In this document: positions 10,759 to 49,924 of the stretch, in pieces | Numbering within the stretch: the stretch's first letter is position 1 | Layout of the letters: the number at the start of each line of letters is the position of its first letter | Source: Imbricaverruca yamaguchii | Taxonomy: Eukaryota; Arthropoda; Thecostraca; Neoverrucidae | Assembly: GCA_034440575.1 (NCBI GenBank) | Contig: JAOTOL010001642.1 | Coordinates: 1,674,001-1,738,000 of the forward strand | Reading direction: 5' to 3' | DNA: 64,000 nt | Notes under the pieces: generated by a model | Database searches by the model: none | Told to the model about the DNA's origin: nothing | What the model saw: only the letters and a program-made list of their open reading frames with translations | Program-made: the position numbers and the translations under genes

Positions 10759-10882
10759 GAGGGTCTGGGCCAGTGGTACCCGCTGGACTCTGAACTTGTC
10801 ATGAACAACGGAGAAGTGGTGGGCACGCGTGAGTTCACCGGCGACAATGTCCTGCTCGACTGTCGCTTCGAGGTGCCGTTCG
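10759..10882 (+). CDS. unc-13: unc-13 exon, C-terminal part of C2A domain
   Basis: A 124-bp exon encoding the last beta strands of the UNC-13/Munc13 C2A domain and the start of the following linker: EGLGQWYPLDSELVMNNG, EVVGT, then VLLDCRFEVPF. The family pattern at this place is EEGPGEW-LDSE-, VCGT and LLD-RFELPFD, so the match is specific. UNC-13 is a presynaptic active-zone protein that primes vesicles by opening syntaxin; its C2A domain binds RIM. The acceptor is CTCTGCGCCCGCAG just before 10759 and the donor is G|GTGAGT at 10883. The exon starts in phase 0 and ends in phase 1, leaving a G that joins AC of the exon at 14608 to make the expected aspartate of the FELPFD block. Upstream C2A exons are not in view. 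Confidence 0.85.
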
Positions 10883-11124
10883 GTGAGTGCACGACTCTTA
10901 TAGGGCAAGGGTTGGCGAACGTGAACTTGCTTTCTCACGCCGTGTTTTGACCATAAAACCCGATTGACTGTCAGGTATGAGATCGAGGGAGTGGACAGAT
11001 TATGAAAAATGTATGTATGCACGCAAAATATGTTCCAAATGAAGGAAATGTGCTCTTATATGCACAATTTGTACGTAGTCTCAGGACATGTAAAAATAAG
11101 ATATATATGGACATATTGTGATTT
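10883..11124. other. unc-13 intron, short featureless part
   Basis: Starts with the consensus donor GTGAGT. Otherwise AT-rich with no recognised element. Confidence 0.5.
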
Positions 11125-11480
11125 AATACGTACGTAATGACACGAGTCGTCAGGTGCTTGCAATGTCAAGAGGCAAATATGAATGTAGTGTACACTGGCG
11201 AGACCAAACGCGGCGTCAGGGAGCGATTCAACGAACAACTAGGACACGCCAAAAACAAGACCTCAAGCACACCATTAGAAGACCACACACACCACGGTCA
11301 TATGAGAACATTCATAAGCACATATTGGTATAAAGGTATGGATTGTACATGTAAAGGCGTTGCCGAGCAAAAATAGTCGAATCGTTGGAGATCGGCAATC
11401 GTAAGCCAACGCATGACACCAAGACATCCTCATGTACCCTGTTGCCATCGATTTCATGCCACACTACACTCCTAGCACCG
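11125..11480 (+). pseudogene. Penelope-like element fragment, GIY-YIG endonuclease
   Basis: Plus-strand translation from 11137 gives VVRCLQCQEANMNVVYTGE followed by TKRGVRERFNEQL and a histidine-rich HTHHGH block. This matches the C-terminal GIY-YIG endonuclease of Penelope-like retroelements: a Cys-x-x-Cys pair, then (V)YIGET-R, (K)-R--EH. Here the YIG core reads YTG. After 11376 the frame shifts and the next frame reads IVESLEIGNRKPTHDT, matching the family's ESLEI--RKPT block. The reverse transcriptase part is absent. It is a 5'-truncated, frameshifted copy within an unc-13 intron. Confidence 0.75.
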
Positions 11481-12544
11481 GACAAAGATTGATAGACACC
11501 AGGAGCACAGGCTACTGATCATATCACAACGCATAGCTATACACTGAACGCGTTCGTCGTAACCGATGACTACGGCGCCGCGTAGTGGTGTAGATATAAT
11601 TTGACCTTATAAATGTTTCCTGTTTCTTGTTAATTCGTTAGAGTGTCAGCACCCTATCATATCCATTGTATTCGTATCATGTCGTGTCATATCAATCTGA
11701 TTCCACTGGCTGTGAGATTGTTACTTTGTAAAGTGCAAACTAAAGACTAACGACACGTTCCGTGTCATTTTGTAAGTGTTTTCTCTCAGCTTCATTCTGT
11801 CACTGTTGACAGAGACACGTCGTCGAAATATACAATTGTAGGCCTAGTTTATCTCTTTCAGTTATAATGAGCACAAGGTGAACATTTCTACTGACAATAT
11901 CATTCACAATCCTCAGTGTAGTGTTGCATAATCTCCACTCACATTTTAGCTGCTTACAACAGTCGTTAATGGGGCAATATTCGCCCCATGATTCTTCGTT
12001 AGCGACAAGTCTCAGCATTTTCTGTCTCCCGTAATTTCGACAACTACTTTGCGCCCCTGAAAACCTTTCTGAAAATTATCTTTAAAGTACATGGGACTTT
12101 CGCGTCGAAACACGGCGCCAGGTGGAAAATTCACGTTGCCAACCGCCCTCCCCGCCTGTGTGAGCGGCCATCGTGAGTGGTAGTCTGCAGCTGCTCGCTG
12201 TCTACCGTCGCCTCTCGCCTCTGTGAGAAGCGAGAGGCGACGGTAGACAGCGCCGAGCCAAATAGAGTGACACAGCGACGGCTGTCAGGGCGGCTGAATT
12301 TTGACGTCCCGCCACCAGACAGGCAGACCCTCCGCCATGTTTCTTCACAGTGATATCGGCTGCTTCTCGGATGTCATGCAGTCGGTTGAACCTTGCCGAT
12401 TTGGCGAAGAAGGTATGTCATAAGGTGCCTGAATCGAACGTTTGATTATCACAGAATACGTTTGTGTCTTTTCTTCTTAGCATATTAATATTTATTTAAT
12501 TTAAATATATAATTCTAAGTCAACATACGTTATATAATTTCTTA
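11481..12544. other. unc-13 intron with one long hairpin
   Basis: No coding signal was recognised. The only structured part is the hairpin at 12196-12252. AT-rich sequence at 12480-12540 precedes the 32-bp array. Confidence 0.5.
12196..12252. other. Perfect 23-bp inverted repeat, 11-nt loop
   Basis: Positions 12196-12218 are perfectly complementary to 12230-12252, with an 11-nt loop that can add three more pairs. The arms are GC-rich. With a helix of at least 23 bp and a small loop it resembles a small-RNA precursor in shape, but no family was recognised. A GCTC/GAGC pair outside a 3-nt bulge extends the base slightly. Confidence 0.85.
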
Positions 12545-13282
12545 TCGGCGTGTCGGCAGTATTGTTGTTATGTAGTGCTGTGTACCGACAGTATTGCTGC
12601 TGTGTAGTGCTGCGTGTCGGCGGTATTACTGCTGTGTAGTGCTGCGCGTCGGCGGTATTGCTGTCGTGTAGTGCTGTGTTCCGACAGTATTGCTGTCGTG
12701 TAGTGCTGCGTGTCGGCGGTATTGCTGTCGTGTAGTGCTGTGTACCGACAGTATTGCTGCTGTGTAGTGCTGCGTATCGGCGGTATTGCTGTCGTGTAGT
12801 GCTGTGTACCGACAGTATTGCTGCTGTGTAGTGCTGCGTATCGGCGGTATTACTGCTGTGTAGTGCTGCGCGTCGGTGGTATTGCTGTCGTGTAGTGCTG
12901 CGTGTCGGCGGTATTGCTGTTGTGTAGTGCTATGTACCGACAATATTGCTGTCGTGTAGTGCTGTGTACCAACAGTATTGCTGTCGTGTAGTGCTGCGTG
13001 TCGGCGGTATTGCTGTCGTGTAGTGCTGCGTGTCGGTGGTATTGCTGTCGTGTAGTGCTGCGTGTCGGTGGTATTGCTGTCGTGTAGTGCTGCGTGTCGG
13101 CGGTATTGCTGTCGTGTAGTGCTGTGTACCGACAGTATTGCTGTCGTGTAGTGCTGCGTGTCGGCGGTATTGCTGTCGTGTAGTGCTGCGTGTCGGTGGT
13201 ATTGCTGTCGTGTAGTGTTGCTTGTCAGCAGCATTGCTGTCGTGTAGTGCTGCGTGTCGGCGGTATTGTTGTCGTATAGTGC
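12545..13282 (+). repeat. 32-bp minisatellite, about 23 copies
   Basis: The unit is built from TATTGCTGTCGTGTAGTGC plus a GTGTCGGCG-like tail. Copies alternate between two main variants (tail GTGTCGGCGG or GTACCGACAG). Because 32 is not a multiple of three, a continuous antisense open frame cycles through a 32-residue period over 96 bp; the minus-strand frames of 243 and 204 codons across it are repeat artefacts. Each unit contains a weak TGTCGTGTAG acceptor-like string, but no confirmed exon follows. Confidence 0.95.
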
Positions 13283-13869
13283 TGGGTGTGGGCTGCACTG
13301 AGTCACACACAGAGTCGCAGAGGCTGCGCGAGTCTTTGGAGCTGCTTTGCAAGACATCCCAGTGTGTCGTGTGCAAGTTCACCTGCGCAAACTGCGAGAG
13401 AGTAGCCGATGACAGCCGAGACGCCCGGCTACGCCATGACGAGGTCTTGGGAACACGCTTCCCAGCTCTAGTTGACACATTGCCACGACATTTGGCGACG
13501 AGGGGCCTATCCAGTCTCCGACCGCTGCAGAAGAGAGCGAGCATTGTGCGCTATGTGCCCCCGCTGATGCAGTTTATGCTCGCGGACTGCGGTATCGGCT
13601 CGACGGCTTCAGATCACCCTCCGGACAGAAATGCGTGACCTTGGCCTGGGCAACGGCACCAGTGGGAGCGTTTCCATCGGTCATGGCCGTCACCGGTGGA
13701 TGGCACCAGCACCGACGACACCAGCGGGACGACAGCACGCTCCCATTCGCCACGAGCGAAGAAGACGCGGTGTCACCGGCCCGGCGACGTTTTCAGCTGG
13801 ATTGATGAGGATTTGGTCGGATGTGCGTCACACGCAATGTAGATTTCCTGCCATCTAGATTGAATCGGC
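13283..13869 (+). other. Unassigned open region with two CxxC pairs
   Basis: A plus-strand open frame runs out of the 32-bp array to 13638. Its unique part reads SLELLCKTSQCVVCKFTCANC, ending in two Cys-x-x-Cys pairs. No family was recognised, and since exons 10759-10882 and 14608-14742 join cleanly this region is not needed in unc-13. It may be a pseudo-exon, a relic of another element, or chance. Confidence 0.25.
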
Positions 13870-14607
13870 CTTCTTTGAGTGCGTTCCAGACGGATGGCGA
13901 TTCCCCCGAGTGCATTTAAGACTTGGTGGAGATCCTGTCGGCTGTGTTTCGGACGTGCACATTATCTCTCTATTCTAAGCTTGATGAAGATTCTCTCGGC
14001 TGTGCATGTTAGAGGTTATCTTGGTTGTGACAAGGTGGAGATTCAGCGACTGCTTAAATCGTGACAGTGGCTCTTCTGATACATTTCAGACAGCATGCAT
14101 CCTTTCCACTTCATTTCACGGGCGACAAAATTCATCCCAGATATATTGCCACATCCTGAATATTCTCCTCAGTGCATTCAAGACGTGATGATTCTCCCGG
14201 CTATACTTTAAACATTATGAGGATGCTTCCTTTCTGTGCTCCAGGCATTATGAAAACTCCCTCTTACTGTGCTTCAGACATGATAAAGATCCGCTCTTGC
14301 TGTGCTTCAGACAGGATAAAGATTCACTCTTGCTGTGCTTCAGACAGGATAAAGATTCGCTCTTGCTGTGCTTCAGACATGATAAAGACTCCCTCTTGCT
14401 GTGCTTCAGACATGATAAAGACTACTTCTTGCTGTGCTTCAGACATGATAAAGACTCCCTCTTGCTGTGCTTCAGACATGATAAAGACTCCCTCTTGCTG
14501 TGCTTCAGACATGATAAAGACTCCCTCTTGCTGTGCTTCAGACATGATAAAGACTCCCTCTCGCTGTGCTTCAGACAGGATAAAGACTCCCTCTTGCTGT
14601 GCTTCAG
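13870..14607 (+). repeat. 33-bp array of repeated 3' splice sites
   Basis: The core (14212-14607) consists of 33-bp units with the order CTCTTGCTGTGCTTCAG then ACATGATAAAGACTCC. Each unit is a pyrimidine-rich tract, CAG, and a copy of the first bases of the exon that starts at 14608 (ACATGATGG). CAG ends fall at 14244, 14277, 14310, 14343, 14376, 14409, 14442, 14475, 14508, 14541, 14574 and 14607, exactly 33 bp apart. Copies near the exon are nearly identical, while copies upstream towards 13870 are progressively degenerate. The frame of the exon is open through the core, encoding an 11-residue repeat (CCASDMIKTPS). Confidence 0.93.
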
Positions 14608-14742
14608 ACATGATGGAGTGCGACGCGGGGGAGCTGCAGAGAAAGCTGGAGATGCTGAACTCTGCGATGTCGTCGGAGAGCGTGCCGCCAGGCCAGGGCG
14701 GCGGCGCGGGCGGCACCCGGCACCTCCAGCTGCAGCAGATAT
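14608..14742 (+). CDS. unc-13: unc-13 exon, helical linker after C2A
   Basis: A 135-bp exon. The G left by exon 10759-10882 plus AC gives aspartate, followed by MMECDAGELQRKLEMLNSAM and then a Gly-rich stretch ending near RHLQLQQI. UNC-13 proteins carry an acidic, helical ELQRKLE-LN-xM segment just after the FELPFD block, so both content and position fit. The acceptor is TGCTGTGCTTCAG and is the last of twelve equivalent acceptors in the upstream array; use of an earlier one would add 11 residues per unit without breaking the frame. The proposed donor is AT|GTACGC at 14743, which is weak but gives the phase 1 end needed for exon 32333-32627. The exon end is less certain than its start. Confidence 0.78.
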
Positions 14743-16136: not shown

Positions 16137-18854
16137 TTAGAATTCAAAAACAACATTTTCCTGTCTAAAAAAATTATCCACCCTACTTTTAAAGACATTC
16201 AATGAGGGACTCCCCACTGCATCAGCAGGCAGCCTATTCCATTGGTCAACAACCCTTTGACTGAAGACCTGTTGTCGTTTAACTGTCCTGCACCTCATTT
16301 TGTCTAACCTGAATTGATGACCCCTATGGGATACTCTAAACTGCAGAGCATCATTCAAATTGACCTGATCTAGCCCTCTAACAATTTTGTACATTTCAAT
16401 CATGTCTCCCCTTAATCTCCTATACTTGAGTGAGTACATATCTAATGCATTAAGCCTTTCTCCATATTCTAAGTTACTTAATCCACTGACGAGTCTAGTG
16501 GCTTTGCGCTGGACTCTTTCTAACATATCTATATCCTTTTCTAGGTAGGGGCTCCATGCCTGTACAGAGTACTCCAAGTGGGGCCGCACATATGCTAAGT
16601 ACAGCTTTTTCATGACTTCCCTGCTCTTATATTTCACACTTCTATTAATGAGTCCCAGCATTCTGAGTGCCCTATTTCTAGCTGAGATACATTGTTTTTC
16701 TGCTTTAAGGTCTTTTGAGACCAACACACCTAAGTCCCTTTCCTCTTCAATAACATCCAGTTCCCTCCCTCCCATTTTATAATTGAATGTCTCGCCTGCA
16801 GACCCTATATGCATAACCTTACACTTGTCATAGTTGAAAGTCATCTGCCATTGATCAGCCCACTCTTTTAGGTCGTCCAAATCTAGTTGAATATTACTAG
16901 ATTGATCTCTGCTGTTAGCCACTCCTACCAGCTTGATGTCATCAGCAAATTTGAACACTCTATTCCTCAGCCCTACTTCAATGTTGTTCACAAAGATGAT
17001 AAAGAGGAGGGGCCCTAGAACAGAGCCCTGTGGCACTCCACTCAGAACATCTTTCCAACCAGATTTACATCCATTCAATACTACCCTTTGTTTCCTTCCC
17101 TGCAACCATGCTTCAATCCAATGTAGAACTTTTCCTACAATCCCATGTTGTTGTAATCGATGAATTAACCTTTCATGTGGAACTTTATCAAAAGCTTTGC
17201 TAAAGTCCAAGTACACAACATCCATCCTGCTTTCATTGTCTACTTCTTTGGTAACATACTCAATGAACTCCAATAGGTTAGTTAAACAAGACCTTTGAGA
17301 TCGAAATCCATGTTGAGTATCCCTTAAAAGGTTGTGCCTATCAAGATGAATCTGAACATTCTGTTTAACCAGCTTTTCTAGTACTTTGCAAACTAATGAG
17401 GTCAAACTGACTGGCCTGTAGTTTCCTACACTCTTCCTATTTCCCTTTTTGAAAATTGGTACTACACTTGCATTTCTCCAATCTTCAGGTACTTCTGAAT
17501 ACTCCATAGATCGCCTGAAAATGATACATAGGGGAGTTGCTAAAGCTTTAGCACACTCTACTAAGATCCTAGCATATATTTCATCTGGTCCGGAAGCTTT
17601 ATTAGGTTTTATATTCTGCAACTGCTTCTCTACGGCTTCTGTAGTTATTGTAAGATCCTCCAGCATATCACCTGCCATGGCATGGCCTACAGATGTTCCT
17701 ATTGTACCAGAATTATCTTTAGTGAAGACTGATGAGAATTGCTTGCTTAGGGATTCCACAATGTCGCAATCATCAACCACTATTTCCCCATCTACCTCCA
17801 GTGGTCCTACACTACACTTTTTAGCCTTAAATTTATAGAAGCTAAAGAATCTCTTAGCATTACCTGCTGAACATTCTCGAGCAAAGTTGATTTCAGCAAG
17901 TCTTTTAGATGCTCTAACACACCTCCTAACTTTATTTCTAGCTATTCTATATGATTCTAGGTTTAACCCAGAGTTAGTATCTTTTAGTTTCTTGAATGCT
18001 TGTTTCTTTGAGTCCAGTAATTGCTTAACTTCCCTAGTCAGCCACGAAGGGTGCTTAACCCTGTTTGATCTAATTTGCCTGCTGGGAATGAACCTATCCT
18101 GACCCTGAAATAGCTTATCTTTTATCATTGTCCACATTTCATAAGCATCTAAGCCATTCAATATGACTTCCCAATTAATTTCACTTAGGAAGCTCCTGAA
18201 CTCACTGTAATTCCATTTTGTAAAATTCGGAATCAATGTTCTGTTGGTTGCTACCCTTCCAACATATAATGAGAAGCGTATAATGTTGTGATCACTATTA
18301 CCAAAGGTCTCTCCTACGTTAACATTTTGCACAAAATTTTCCTCATTAGTAAGCACTAGATCTAATATTTTATTTTCCCTTGTAGGCTCGTGTATCATTT
18401 GAAAGAAGAAATTGTCCTCAAAACAAGCCATGAAACATCTTTCTGATTTGCTTACACCTATTGTTTTGTTTCCCAATCCTGCTATGTTGAAATCCCCCAA
18501 CAAAATAGTTCTCTCCTGTACTCTCCTACTTATCTCTTCCTGCATCAGCCTGTCAGTGTTTTCATTCTGGTCTGGAGGTCTATAGAATGCCCCAATCCTA
18601 AATTTTGTTCCATTCTTCAGAATTATATCTAACCACAAAGATTCTACTCCTGCACTATGTACTCCATCCTCTATGGAATGACATTTCATTACTTGCCTAA
18701 CATACAAGAGAATGCCACCTCCTATCCTTGCCTCTCTTTGATAGGGATGCATGTTGTAGCCTGTCAATTCAAATTCTTGCAAGTTGTCTCCAAACATGCT
18801 TTCGTTAACCCATGCTTCTGTTATGCACACCAAATCTAGCTGTTCAGACAACAT
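16137..18854 (-). CDS. LINE ORF2: endonuclease and reverse transcriptase
   Basis: 905 codons from the first in-frame ATG. The frame stays open upstream to an in-frame TGA at 19011-19013, and the extension encodes the expected endonuclease start (FYVNARSVRNKIGELH), so the real product probably begins upstream of this ATG. The APE-like endonuclease occupies roughly residues 1-200, with the catalytic GDFNI and SDHNIIRFSL motifs. The reverse transcriptase follows from about residue 400, with YRPVSLTS, QHGFRSQRS, DFSKAFDKVPHERL, GVPQGSVLGPLLF and the catalytic FADD. The C-terminal tail has RPHLEYSVQAWSP and a final LNVFKSRVDNFF-like block. No internal stop or frameshift was found, so this copy inserted recently in evolutionary terms. 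It would nick DNA and copy the element RNA at the target. Confidence 0.92.
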   Translation of the reverse strand: MLSEQLDLVCITEAWVNESMFGDNLQEFELTGYNMHPYQREARIGGGILLYVRQVMKCHSIEDGVHSAGVESLWLDIILKNGTKFRIGAFYRPPDQNENTDRLMQEEISRRVQERTILLGDFNIAGLGNKTIGVSKSERCFMACFEDNFFFQMIHEPTRENKILDLVLTNEENFVQNVNVGETFGNSDHNIIRFSLYVGRVATNRTLIPNFTKWNYSEFRSFLSEINWEVILNGLDAYEMWTMIKDKLFQGQDRFIPSRQIRSNRVKHPSWLTREVKQLLDSKKQAFKKLKDTNSGLNLESYRIARNKVRRCVRASKRLAEINFARECSAGNAKRFFSFYKFKAKKCSVGPLEVDGEIVVDDCDIVESLSKQFSSVFTKDNSGTIGTSVGHAMAGDMLEDLTITTEAVEKQLQNIKPNKASGPDEIYARILVECAKALATPLCIIFRRSMEYSEVPEDWRNASVVPIFKKGNRKSVGNYRPVSLTSLVCKVLEKLVKQNVQIHLDRHNLLRDTQHGFRSQRSCLTNLLEFIEYVTKEVDNESRMDVVYLDFSKAFDKVPHERLIHRLQQHGIVGKVLHWIEAWLQGRKQRVVLNGCKSGWKDVLSGVPQGSVLGPLLFIIFVNNIEVGLRNRVFKFADDIKLVGVANSRDQSSNIQLDLDDLKEWADQWQMTFNYDKCKVMHIGSAGETFNYKMGGRELDVIEEERDLGVLVSKDLKAEKQCISARNRALRMLGLINRSVKYKSREVMKKLYLAYVRPHLEYSVQAWSPYLEKDIDMLERVQRKATRLVSGLSNLEYGERLNALDMYSLKYRRLRGDMIEMYKIVRGLDQVNLNDALQFRVSHRGHQFRLDKMRCRTVKRQQVFSQRVVDQWNRLPADAVGSPSLNVFKSRVDNFFRQENVVFEF

Positions 18855-18979
18855 ATATGCATGCAGTTCCCCAATTTTGTTCCTAACACTTCTGGCATTG
18901 ACATAAAAACATGATAAATTATTCCTTCCATTGCTTGCTATGCTTCTCTCTTTATCAGCTACATCCCCCCATGTCCTGC

Positions 18980-19855
18980 CTAGTTTCCCTGTTTCCTGTT
19001 GAGAGCCTCCTCATACCTATTGCTGAGCAATTCCACTCCTCTCTTGCTCAGATGTAATCCATCTAAAGCAAACATCTCCGTCCTCCCCCAAAACTCCCCC
19101 ACAAATCCAAGAACTGCACCCCAAGCTCCTTACAAATGTTGGCCACCCTGGTATTGAGCCCAATGGCCCTCGAATACCACTCCATGCTTGCATGGACCAT
19201 AGGGAGGATGGATGTCACCACTCCTCTTTTCCTACTTCCTGCTAAACTACCTATCAAAGCCCTATAGGCTTTCATCGTTTCCTCTGTATTATTTTTTCCT
19301 ACATCGTTAACTCCAACCTGCACAATTACCGTTGCACCCTCTCCACTTCCCCTCATTACTCCCTCCAGCCTATCCCTAACATCTTTCACCTGCGCTCCCG
19401 GGTAGCAAACACGCATCCGTCTGCTGGGGTTCTTGCTACAAAATGTTCGATCCATGTACCGAACCCTGGAATCCCCCTATGACTAAAACCTCTCTCTCTC
19501 CATCTCTATCTTCAGCCATCTGGTCATCCCCACCTCCGTCCCTCTCATCATTACCTTCCCTCTCCTCCAGTGCATCAAACCTATTTTTAATTGGGACGCC
19601 CATGTCCACCTTCCTTAGCGCCAGTCGGGTGCTATGGCGCCTTGCCACCTTCCAACTGCCACCATCCCGGACCAAGCCATCCGAACACCCATCAGTCCTC
19701 CGCTCGGGCACCCGAGTTGCCTGGCTGGCACCTCCCATGATGGGTCCCGCCACCAAACACTTCAAGCGCTCCACCTCCCCCGTTAACATATCTAACCTCT
19801 TACTCAAGTCCCCAATGATTCCCACACACTTACAATTCCCACAGTCTCCTTCCAT
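18980..19855 (-). pseudogene. LINE ORF1: coiled-coil/SGNH esterase, two frameshifts
   Basis: The first segment (19855-19436) begins MEGDCGNCKCVGIIGDLSKR with a predicted coiled-coil stretch and acidic linker, then runs up to the VLVIG strand that precedes the catalytic serine block. One surplus base in a run of five C (plus strand, near 19481-19485) throws the frame there. The second segment (19455-19063) carries the SGNH core, including IVQVGVNDVGKNN, the block III asparagine motif. It reaches a premature stop beside a second indel in a G-rich run near 19090. The neighbouring frame continues with DGLHLSKRGVELL, the block V Asp-x-x-His motif, to a stop near 18980. SGNH-type ORF1 is typical of CR1/L2 elements. 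Here all parts remain recognisable but in three frames. Confidence 0.82.
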
Positions 19856-20392: not shown

Positions 20393-21535
20393 AAAAATAC
20401 TTATTTGATAAAAACTGTTGAAATATACGCTCAGAAGCAACCGCTAAATATCTATACACAATTTATCCCAGTACACCGTCCTTTTCCGCAACACTTAGCT
20501 CGTATGTAGTAGCCCCACCAAACACGTGTTTCCTCCTCAACGCCTGGCGGCAGACTGAATGAAGTTCATATGAAGTTAATATGAAGTTCGTATACCACAG
20601 CATAGCCGAGGTGATTAGCGTCCAATGAAGCTTTCGGGCCAAGTGTCGTTCGTGTTTATTAATTGTGCTGCTCATGAATATCACACGAGCTATATAATTA
20701 TGTGCAACTGGACAACTTTGGTGCCATCAGCTGTTCATGCCCCAATATGGGCGCTCTGTAAATGCTGCATAATAGCTAGTGAAATCATTTGAAGTGCACA
20801 AACAACATTGAACTGAAATATTCAGATATCGACTGCTCAGGGTTGAATGACAATTAGACTTGGCACTTGACATTGTGTCTCGTTCCAGGCCATTATTTGT
20901 CGTCTGTGTCCTTGACATTCTGTCAGTTATCTGCTGCCTGTGTCCTTGACACTTTGTCAATCGTCTGACGTCTGTGTTCTTGGCACTTTGTCTTTGTCAG
21001 CTGTCATCCATGGCCTTCCGGGCGCTGTCTGCTGCCTCTATCAACCATTTGTCGTTTGTTCTACCTTGTTTGTTGTCAGCCACCCGATATCCACCATCCG
21101 TTGTCCGTTTTTCGCTCTTGCTGTGCGCCATCCTGCATTTGTGTTCTGTTATTTGACGAAAGTGCACGTGTACTATGCCAAGACTATGGGGATCCCTGGG
21201 CTATGGGGGAAGTTGCACTATTTTCCTGGTACTTTGCACTACTTCCTGGTACCTGGTACTGGTTATTATTTGTGTCCGTAGAGCAATGTCTTGTACTTCT
21301 ATCAACTAAAACGTATAACCTATTGCAAGTCCAAGGCCACTAAATATCCTAGGTGTTCACAAAGGTCGAACAAGTCACTAAAAACCACCAAAGTTCACCA
21401 AAGGTTGCCCACGGCCACTAATGAGTGAACCATATATTTCCTGCACCGAAGTAAACTTTGGCCTTCGTTGTATATCCATTCCTCAAATATTGCCATCCCT
21501 ATCCATTGATACCGTATGGATGTCGATCTTAGTCT
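20393..21535. other. unc-13 intron, nothing recognised
   Basis: No exon, RNA or transposon protein was seen. Between 20870 and 21000 there are loose repeats of the form GTCTGTGTCCTTGACA, about 30-50 bp apart. A TGTCGTTTGT-rich stretch follows to 21170. Confidence 0.45.
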
Positions 21536-32332: not shown

Positions 32333-32627
32333 CTGGCGTCTCAGAGGACAGCGACTACACCAGCGACATCGGCTTCCCAGTCGGCCAGAACCCCAACTCG
32401 TCGGCGTCGCAGTACCTGGGCGCGGCCAACAACCTGAGTGTCGCCCAGGGATACTCTCCCCATCAGCTGTCGCCCGGCTACGGCGTGCGCGCCTACCAGA
32501 ACGCCCTGTCGCCCGGCTACCCAAATGCCGGTTACCCCGGCCACCAAGAGGTGTCGCCAAGAGCGGACTGGCCCGAGGACGGGCTCTTCTACAACAGTCG
32601 GCCAAACGGGATGGCGGCCTCGACCAG
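32333..32627 (+). CDS. unc-13: unc-13 exon, EDSDYTSD linker
   Basis: A 295-bp exon. After two bases completing a split codon it encodes GVSEDSDYTSDIGFPVGQ, then NPNSSASQ and a Tyr/Pro-rich stretch with SPGYGVRAY and SPGYPNAGY repeats, ending FYNSRPNGMAAST. UNC-13 proteins carry a conserved EDSDYTSD-xxPVGQ-PNSSASQF segment in the disordered linker between C2A and C1, so the match is specific. The acceptor is CACCCTTGCCGCAG and the donor CAG|GTGGGT at 32628. Phase 1 at the start matches the end of exon 14608-14742. The exon ends in phase 2. The linker's exact role is not known from sequence. Confidence 0.87.
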
Positions 32628-49389: not shown

Positions 49390-49758
49390 ATAGCGCCGCT
49401 TCGCCTTCTTGTCGTGCTCGAGCTGACCTGCCCTGACCTGATCCGTGCGTCGCCGCAGTTTCGAACTAACGCCATTTCCGGAACAGCCCCGCTCGGGAAT
49501 AGCGCCACCTCGTGCCAGAGCGGACCTGACCTGACCTGTACGTCGCCGCAGTAGCGCAGAATAGCGCCGTTTAGTGCCCGAGCTAACCTGACCTGACCTG
49601 ACCTATAGGTCTTCGCACTATCGAAAAGTACCACCGCTTCGTGCCCGAGCTGACCTGACCTGGCGTGCTTGTCGCCAATGTATCGGATAATTGCGTCGTC
49701 AAGCGCCCGAGCTGACCTGACGCGACCTGACCTGACCTGACCCGTACATGCCCCGCAG
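49390..49758 (+). repeat. About 93-bp degenerate array of 3' splice site region
   Basis: About five diverged units, each with CGTGCCCGAGCTGACCTGACC and in three cases followed by a GTCGCCGCAG or CCCCGCAG acceptor. AG ends are at 49458, 49551 (93 bp apart) and the true exon acceptor 49758; two intervening units have lost the AG. The TGACC pentamer recurs in runs within the units, so on the minus strand AGGTCA hexamers repeat every 5 bp. The final unit is the splice acceptor of exon 49759-49924. Confidence 0.75.
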
Positions 49759-49924
49759 TGTCGGAGACGGGCCGCCGCCACAGTCTGGAGCGACAGACCA
49801 CGCTGTACGAGGAGCAGCCGACGGAGGACGAGTGCTACGGCGGCGGCTGGCCGGCCGACCGGCAGAGGTACTATTACCACGACCCGTACAGACTCGAGTC
49901 AGGTGCCCACTTTCCGGCCATCAG
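49759..49924 (+). CDS. unc-13: unc-13 exon, RRHSLERQTTLYEE linker
   Basis: A 166-bp exon. After two bases completing a codon it encodes SETGRRHSLERQTTLYEEQ, then PTEDECYGGGWPADRQR and YYYHDPYRLESGAHFPAI. UNC-13 proteins from invertebrates have an RR-SL-RQ-TLYEE-like segment in the linker ahead of the C1 domain; that assignment is by memory of the family pattern and by gene order. The acceptor is CATGCCCCGCAG and the donor CAG|GTGAGC at 49925, both strong. It starts in phase 1 and ends in phase 2, so at least one exon with a phase 1 end must lie between it and 32627 or 36423. Confidence 0.72.

Follow-up and report, generated by a model that had tools for sequence, protein, structure and literature searches.

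Directly upstream of an exon of the unc-13 gene of the barnacle Imbricaverruca yamaguchii lies a tandem array of 33-bp units, which holds twelve candidate acceptors in a single reading frame and which has the anatomy of a mirage minisatellite. We think it probable that, with this mirage-type minisatellite in place, most mRNA joins exon E1 to position 14608, the upstream copies being redundant or used at a low level. The analysis covered a stretch of 64,000 nucleotides, called the window below, in which the relevant features are:

10759..10882, plus strand: unc-13 exon E1, end of the C2A domain; donor TTCG/gtgagt, phase 1.
13869..14244, plus strand: older 33-bp units in decay, most of them varying in length, of which the final one (14212-14244) closes with the outermost acceptor.
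14242..14244, plus strand: outermost in-frame acceptor, with the top score of the twelve (human 3' splice-site matrix).
14245..14607, plus strand: 33-bp array of 11 in-register units, each with a copy of the exon start (ACATGATAAAG), a pyrimidine-rich stretch and CAG.
14605..14607, plus strand: innermost acceptor, predicted to give the conserved barnacle protein; without TNAY 18-40 nt upstream.
14608..14742, plus strand: unc-13 exon E2, 135 nt; both ends are of phase 1, so that it can be skipped in frame.
32333..32627, plus strand: unc-13 exon E3, with Pollicipes and Amphibalanus matches; its 3' end is placed from the donor sequence only.
From 49759, plus strand: unc-13 exon E4; acceptor at 49758.

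The four exons E1 to E4 are N-terminal exons of unc-13, all on the plus strand. E1 matches the C2A domain of Munc13-1 in the PDB (2cjs, phmmer, E 1.4e-7) and is 83% identical to Pollicipes over 42 amino acids. The best match found for E1, E2 and E3 together is a UNC-13-like protein from Pollicipes pollicipes (P0072), with 138 of 188 columns identical (73%), and these two matches bear out the assignment of the exon at 14608 to unc-13 in the initial annotation. E2 encodes an extension that follows C2A, beginning DMMECDAGELQRKLEMLN... where Pollicipes has DMMDCDAGELQRKLEVLN, and its donor was positioned by the homology of QQ(I/T)SGVSED. A C2A match followed by a conserved downstream extension is thus what is found here, as expected of a UNC-13/Munc13 protein, and the Pollicipes relative also aligned to 2cjs. 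In these Pollicipes alignments 2cjt, which is C2A only, stops three residues before the junction between E1 and E2, while 2cjs, the complex with RIM, runs on through the E2 portion. The model from Amphibalanus amphitrite (P0070) matches E1 and E3, which it joins directly, E2 being absent. Searches of the window by tblastn with six homologues (five arthropod, some full length, and Pollicipes) at E 0.01 gave only E1-E4, and with mammalian Munc13-1 E1 was the only convincing match. The C1, C2B and MUN domains are presumably encoded in the rest of the gene, beyond the window.

The array is found by TRF at 14230-14614, with a period of 33, 11.7 copies, 92% matches and a score of 635. Its CAGs end at 14244, 14277 and so on every 33 bp to 14607, so that the CAG at 14244 and the 11 units after it give twelve in-frame acceptors; the array, the number and spacing of the acceptors, and the make-up of the unit (pyrimidine tract, CAG and exon-start copy) are therefore as the initial annotation had described them. 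CAG is present in 12/12, there are 14-15 pyrimidines in the 20 positions of each array acceptor, and the exon-start copy matches the exon at 9 of 11 bases. All twelve acceptors keep the frame of E2 open into ECDAGELQRKLEMLN, and this frame stays open as far back as 14160. Three units (starting at 14311, 14344 and 14575) contain CAGACAG, providing additional out-of-frame acceptors at 14314, 14347 and 14578, from each of which a stop is met immediately. The T to G change at unit position 4 removes a TGAT motif and at the same time creates this second acceptor 4 nt on, with a frameshift into a stop. Elsewhere in the window the 33-bp unit was not found, save for a 15-base match at 21112 with an E value of 0.33.

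Comparison of the unit with the exon gives 9/11 matches in the first bases (7 exact) followed by 3/22, which is about chance; the unit consequently consists of 22 intronic nt from before the junction and 11 exonic nt from after it. E2 of Pollicipes starts with the same residues D-M-M, and since methionine has one codon, ATGATG is probably older than the array, and the unit is then likely to have been derived from the exon, provided that Pollicipes is without the array. In the E1/E2 numbering, 22 nt from the end of intron 1 together with 11 nt from the start of exon 2 would thus have been duplicated in tandem, and the duplicated unit would then have been expanded and homogenised into twelve acceptor-like cassettes of identical phase. 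We regard this mechanism for the origin of the array as well supported.

Arrays of similar anatomy have been described in amphioxus as mirages, which are tandem duplications across the 3' end of an intron and the 5' part of an exon, with Adh3 and the globins as the cases treated in PMC3087553. According to the same source many mirage copies hold splice signals usable as cryptic sites, and the clusters are unstable in length; it also reports no apparent interference with regular splicing, and an RT-PCR result that suggested normal splicing (PMC3087553). The barnacle array resembles the BflGb6 and Adh3 mirages as described there in that a minisatellite spans an intron-exon boundary. In the globin gene BflGb6 each unit repeats the 3' end of the intron with the 5' part of the exon, and many units hold AG signals; the units are given as 150-160 bp, with 6 copies in one haplotype and 3 in another, compared with 33 bp, a multiple of 3, in the barnacle. 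In the barnacle the repeat likewise crosses the intron-exon boundary, with a part of the exon in each unit and splice signals in the copies; it differs in having 11 full units plus decayed ones, twelve acceptors all in one frame, and a crustacean host. Several close in-frame AGs can also add residues at tandem sites of the NAGNAG type, where AGs spaced 3 nt apart are served by a single branch point and a single pyrimidine tract, whereas in the barnacle each AG has its own tract, the AGs are 33 nt apart, and the CAGACAG pairs are out of frame. No description of an array of tandem acceptors, whether in unc-13 or in a barnacle, was found in the literature as covered by titles and abstracts, which was partial and scarcely targeted at barnacles.

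The initial annotation stated that copies near the exon are alike and those further away decayed, and identities to the consensus agree, with the consensus itself derived from the near units. Six of the seven units nearest the exon have identities of 0.97-1.0 and the other has 0.94; further out the values are 0.91-0.94 for the next three, 0.85, 0.74, and then 0.42-0.71 for 11 blocks reaching to 13869. Between neighbouring units, starting from 14212, they are 0.70, 0.76 and then 0.91-1.0. The distant blocks are recognisable as repeats, as 13850-14228 gives a wraparound alignment score of 56, whereas 200 dinucleotide shuffles average 19.9 and reach at most 36. These 11 decayed blocks are 27-43 bases long, except for a first block of 21 bases, and because of this variation the spacing is even only from 14212 on. 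The further proposal that the array grows outward from the splice junction fits the gradient, but so does ordinary minisatellite turnover: in an amphioxus array, as PMC3087553 describes it, units are homogenised within the cluster while the boundary unit is left out and so escapes homogenisation.

The strengths of the competing acceptors were compared using a human 3' splice-site matrix. On this scale the score is 10.5 for 14244 and lies at 6.3-6.9 for the other eleven, with 6.9 at 14607, while the acceptors of E1, E3 and E4 score 8.2, 5.4 and 4.0; eleven array acceptors are therefore within the range of the other three acceptors of the gene and 14244 is above it. For 1040 intronic AGs the 95th percentile is 5.9 and the 99th is 9.0 with the same matrix. 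A branch-point-like TNAY occurs 27 nt upstream of 9/12 acceptors, with TTAT at 14244, and is absent at 14343, 14376 and 14607, which are the ends of the units with T to G at position 4. TGAC stands 18-38 nt upstream of every one of the other three acceptors of the gene (E1, E3 and E4). Simple scanning would not favour 14607, because TNAY is missing there and 14244 scores best, and here lies the chief difficulty for the reading that most mRNA uses 14607.

The initial annotation also pointed to the open frame. This holds for all twelve acceptors, but it carries little weight: when the 33-nt unit is shuffled (5000 trials) a given frame is open in 59% of cases and at least one of the three frames in 96%, and the real unit has a second open frame as well, so that openness is hardly evidence of coding. 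Relative to the consensus the 11 units show 13 distinct changes, 3 synonymous and 10 nonsynonymous, compared with 23% synonymous expected with transitions weighted 2:1 (P of at least 3, 0.62), in what is a small sample. Purifying selection on the repeat peptide, which would support a coding cassette but is not strictly required by one, is thus not seen (3/13 synonymous), and a selected repeat peptide was rejected as unsupported by counts so near to chance, for 13 changes. The half of the unit with the pyrimidines and CAG holds 2/13 changes, giving P 0.015 if this half is treated as fixed. Constraint on these splice signals was likewise rejected, as P becomes 0.16 when the half is freely chosen, and it was picked after the data had been seen; the same free-half test on four other arrays in the window gave P of 0.50, 1.00, 0.75 and 0.94. 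There is no good evidence for selection on either the repeat peptide or the splice signal in this small sample.

In the UNC-13 of Pollicipes there is no insert at the E1/E2 junction, so that acceptor 14607 would give the conserved protein. Among 73 database proteins, 61 match E1, 69 match E2 and 60 match both. Of the 60, which are not independent cases because they are database proteins, at least partly gene predictions, and many are from related species, 37 have zero residues between the two matches, 22 have an excess of 7 to 566 residues, and one lacks 4. The 22 comprise 21 arthropods and 1 mollusc; ten insect rows share one type of insert of exactly 30 residues (e.g. GKCDPPTGWKALLTSETAMKLRASRPTCGS), and the inserts of 500 and 566 residues are from Scylla (P0009) and Oratosquilla (P0003) respectively. 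Two species have models of both kinds: Osmia lignaria without (P0025) and with (P0052) the 30-residue insert, and Scylla paramamosain without (P0002) and with (P0009) the long one. Judged from these protein models, the junction appears to be a recurrent insertion point that is alternatively spliced in some arthropods, which makes additional 11-residue blocks plausible in the barnacle. The insect, Scylla and Oratosquilla inserts occupy the same junction, from the C2A exon to an exon of the (D)LEETEAQELQRKLE type, but have other sequences, whereas the barnacle residues would come from the acceptor's own repeats. The repeat peptide, used as three copies in BLASTP with E up to 1, matched none of the 73 proteins, and eight arthropod inserts (six insect, Scylla and Oratosquilla) had no convincing match on the plus strand of the intron at 10883-14607, the best being 15 residues at 40% with E 0.047 against this short subject.

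Minisatellites are abundant in the window: those of period 10 or more make up 9.9% of it, in 29 arrays that after merging measure at least 40 bp, and 12.7% of positions have one covering them or within 50 bp upstream. The intron that holds the 33-bp array also contains a 32-bp minisatellite of about 23 copies at 12548-13293. At this density at least one of four acceptors would have a minisatellite by chance with P 0.42 and at least two of four with P 0.08, so that an array near an acceptor is unsurprising; tandem copies were identified at 2/4 acceptors in the window. Compared with 1500 random positions, 2.5% are as repetitive as the E2 acceptor, 7.8% as E4, 26% as E1 and 37% as E3, by what is a weak statistic. 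On the minus strand, 16140-19010 is an open frame of 957 codons, the visible start of which resembles, by eye, a non-LTR retrotransposon protein.

The region 49425-49770 holds the E4 acceptor (49758) and, upstream of it, copies of branch-like CTGAC repeats, CCGCAG and exon-like bases, with 12 CTGAC in 49500-49758. Two older copies of the acceptor end at 49458 and 49551, with 82% identity over 39-40 nt including the CAG; both are a multiple of 3 from 49758 and then run into in-frame stops. We read the E4 copies as a putative second mirage in the same gene, older and decayed, and mirage formation may accordingly be recurrent.

We therefore rank silent or low-level use of the array first and regulated length variation second. 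The first is favoured by the array with its shared frame, the homology of unit and exon (9/11, then 3/22), the lack of an insert in Pollicipes, the neutral pattern of unit changes, the decayed copies, the amphioxus precedent, the minisatellite-rich window, the second case at E4, and the absence of the repeat peptide from the 73 proteins. Most mRNA would then have E1 spliced directly to 14608, matching the Pollicipes model, and the upstream copies would be redundant, or low-level alternative acceptors that add harmless 11-residue blocks to the linker after C2A; changes in copy number would be tolerated, 33 being divisible by 3 and inserts being accepted at this junction in many arthropods. The Pollicipes protein need not predict the barnacle product, since it is a database model and Pollicipes may have no array. 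Regulated use of several acceptors, a possibility raised in the initial annotation, would place between 0 and 11 additional blocks ahead of the RIM-facing segment, after C2A, and would thereby tune C2A dimerisation and RIM binding; we consider it rather unlikely. According to PMC6389284, release in C. elegans is inhibited by homodimers of C2A, and RIM lifts this inhibition. All 12 of 12 acceptors being in phase would suit such a cassette, as would the junction inserts of 7 to 566 residues in 22/60 homologues, the paired models of Osmia lignaria and Scylla paramamosain, and the scarcity of changes in the pyrimidine/CAG half as given; this last point is weakened by the free-half result and the choice of half after the event, and the repeat peptide shows no constraint in its 13 changes.

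That 14244 or another distal acceptor might be the main site, so that the protein would constitutively carry up to 121 extra residues, seems to us distinctly unlikely. The acceptor at 14244 has the higher score (10.5 against 6.9 at 14607), TTAT 27 nt upstream, and the position of first strong AG from the 5' side of the array; but the scores come from a human matrix, the Pollicipes database protein is without an insert, and the exon would grow from 135 to 498 nt. We consider it quite improbable that competition among acceptors lowers the use of E2, which would then often be skipped, joining E1 to E3 in frame. Skipping would be consistent with phase 1 at both ends of E2, with the Amphibalanus amphitrite model, and with the donor of E2, AT/gtacgc, which is far from the usual consensus; the Amphibalanus model, however, may simply have missed E2, that species may be without the array, and the Pollicipes model includes E2. 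Tandem arrays are prone to mis-assembly and the copy number may be wrong, but an artefact of assembly is extremely improbable, as the units differ and decay gradually and the flanking exons are in order.

A more far-reaching idea, which we put forward as a speculation that is unlikely to be right as a whole, is that the array acts as a splicing dial. Its length in each animal would set how many 11-residue spacers the spliceosome can add between C2A and the RIM-facing segment, release probability would depend on a fast-mutating, frame-neutral repeat, and mirages may generally supply new 3' splice sites in barnacles. The anatomy itself is known; what sets the array apart from the amphioxus mirages is the 33-bp frame-neutral unit, the many in-phase copies and the crustacean host, so that boundary-spanning minisatellites are extended from amphioxus to a barnacle. 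Among arthropods the protein already varies at the junction that the array occupies, and the array provides a natural experiment on 3' splice-site choice, with twelve similar serial acceptors that differ by few, known bases before one exon of a synaptic gene.
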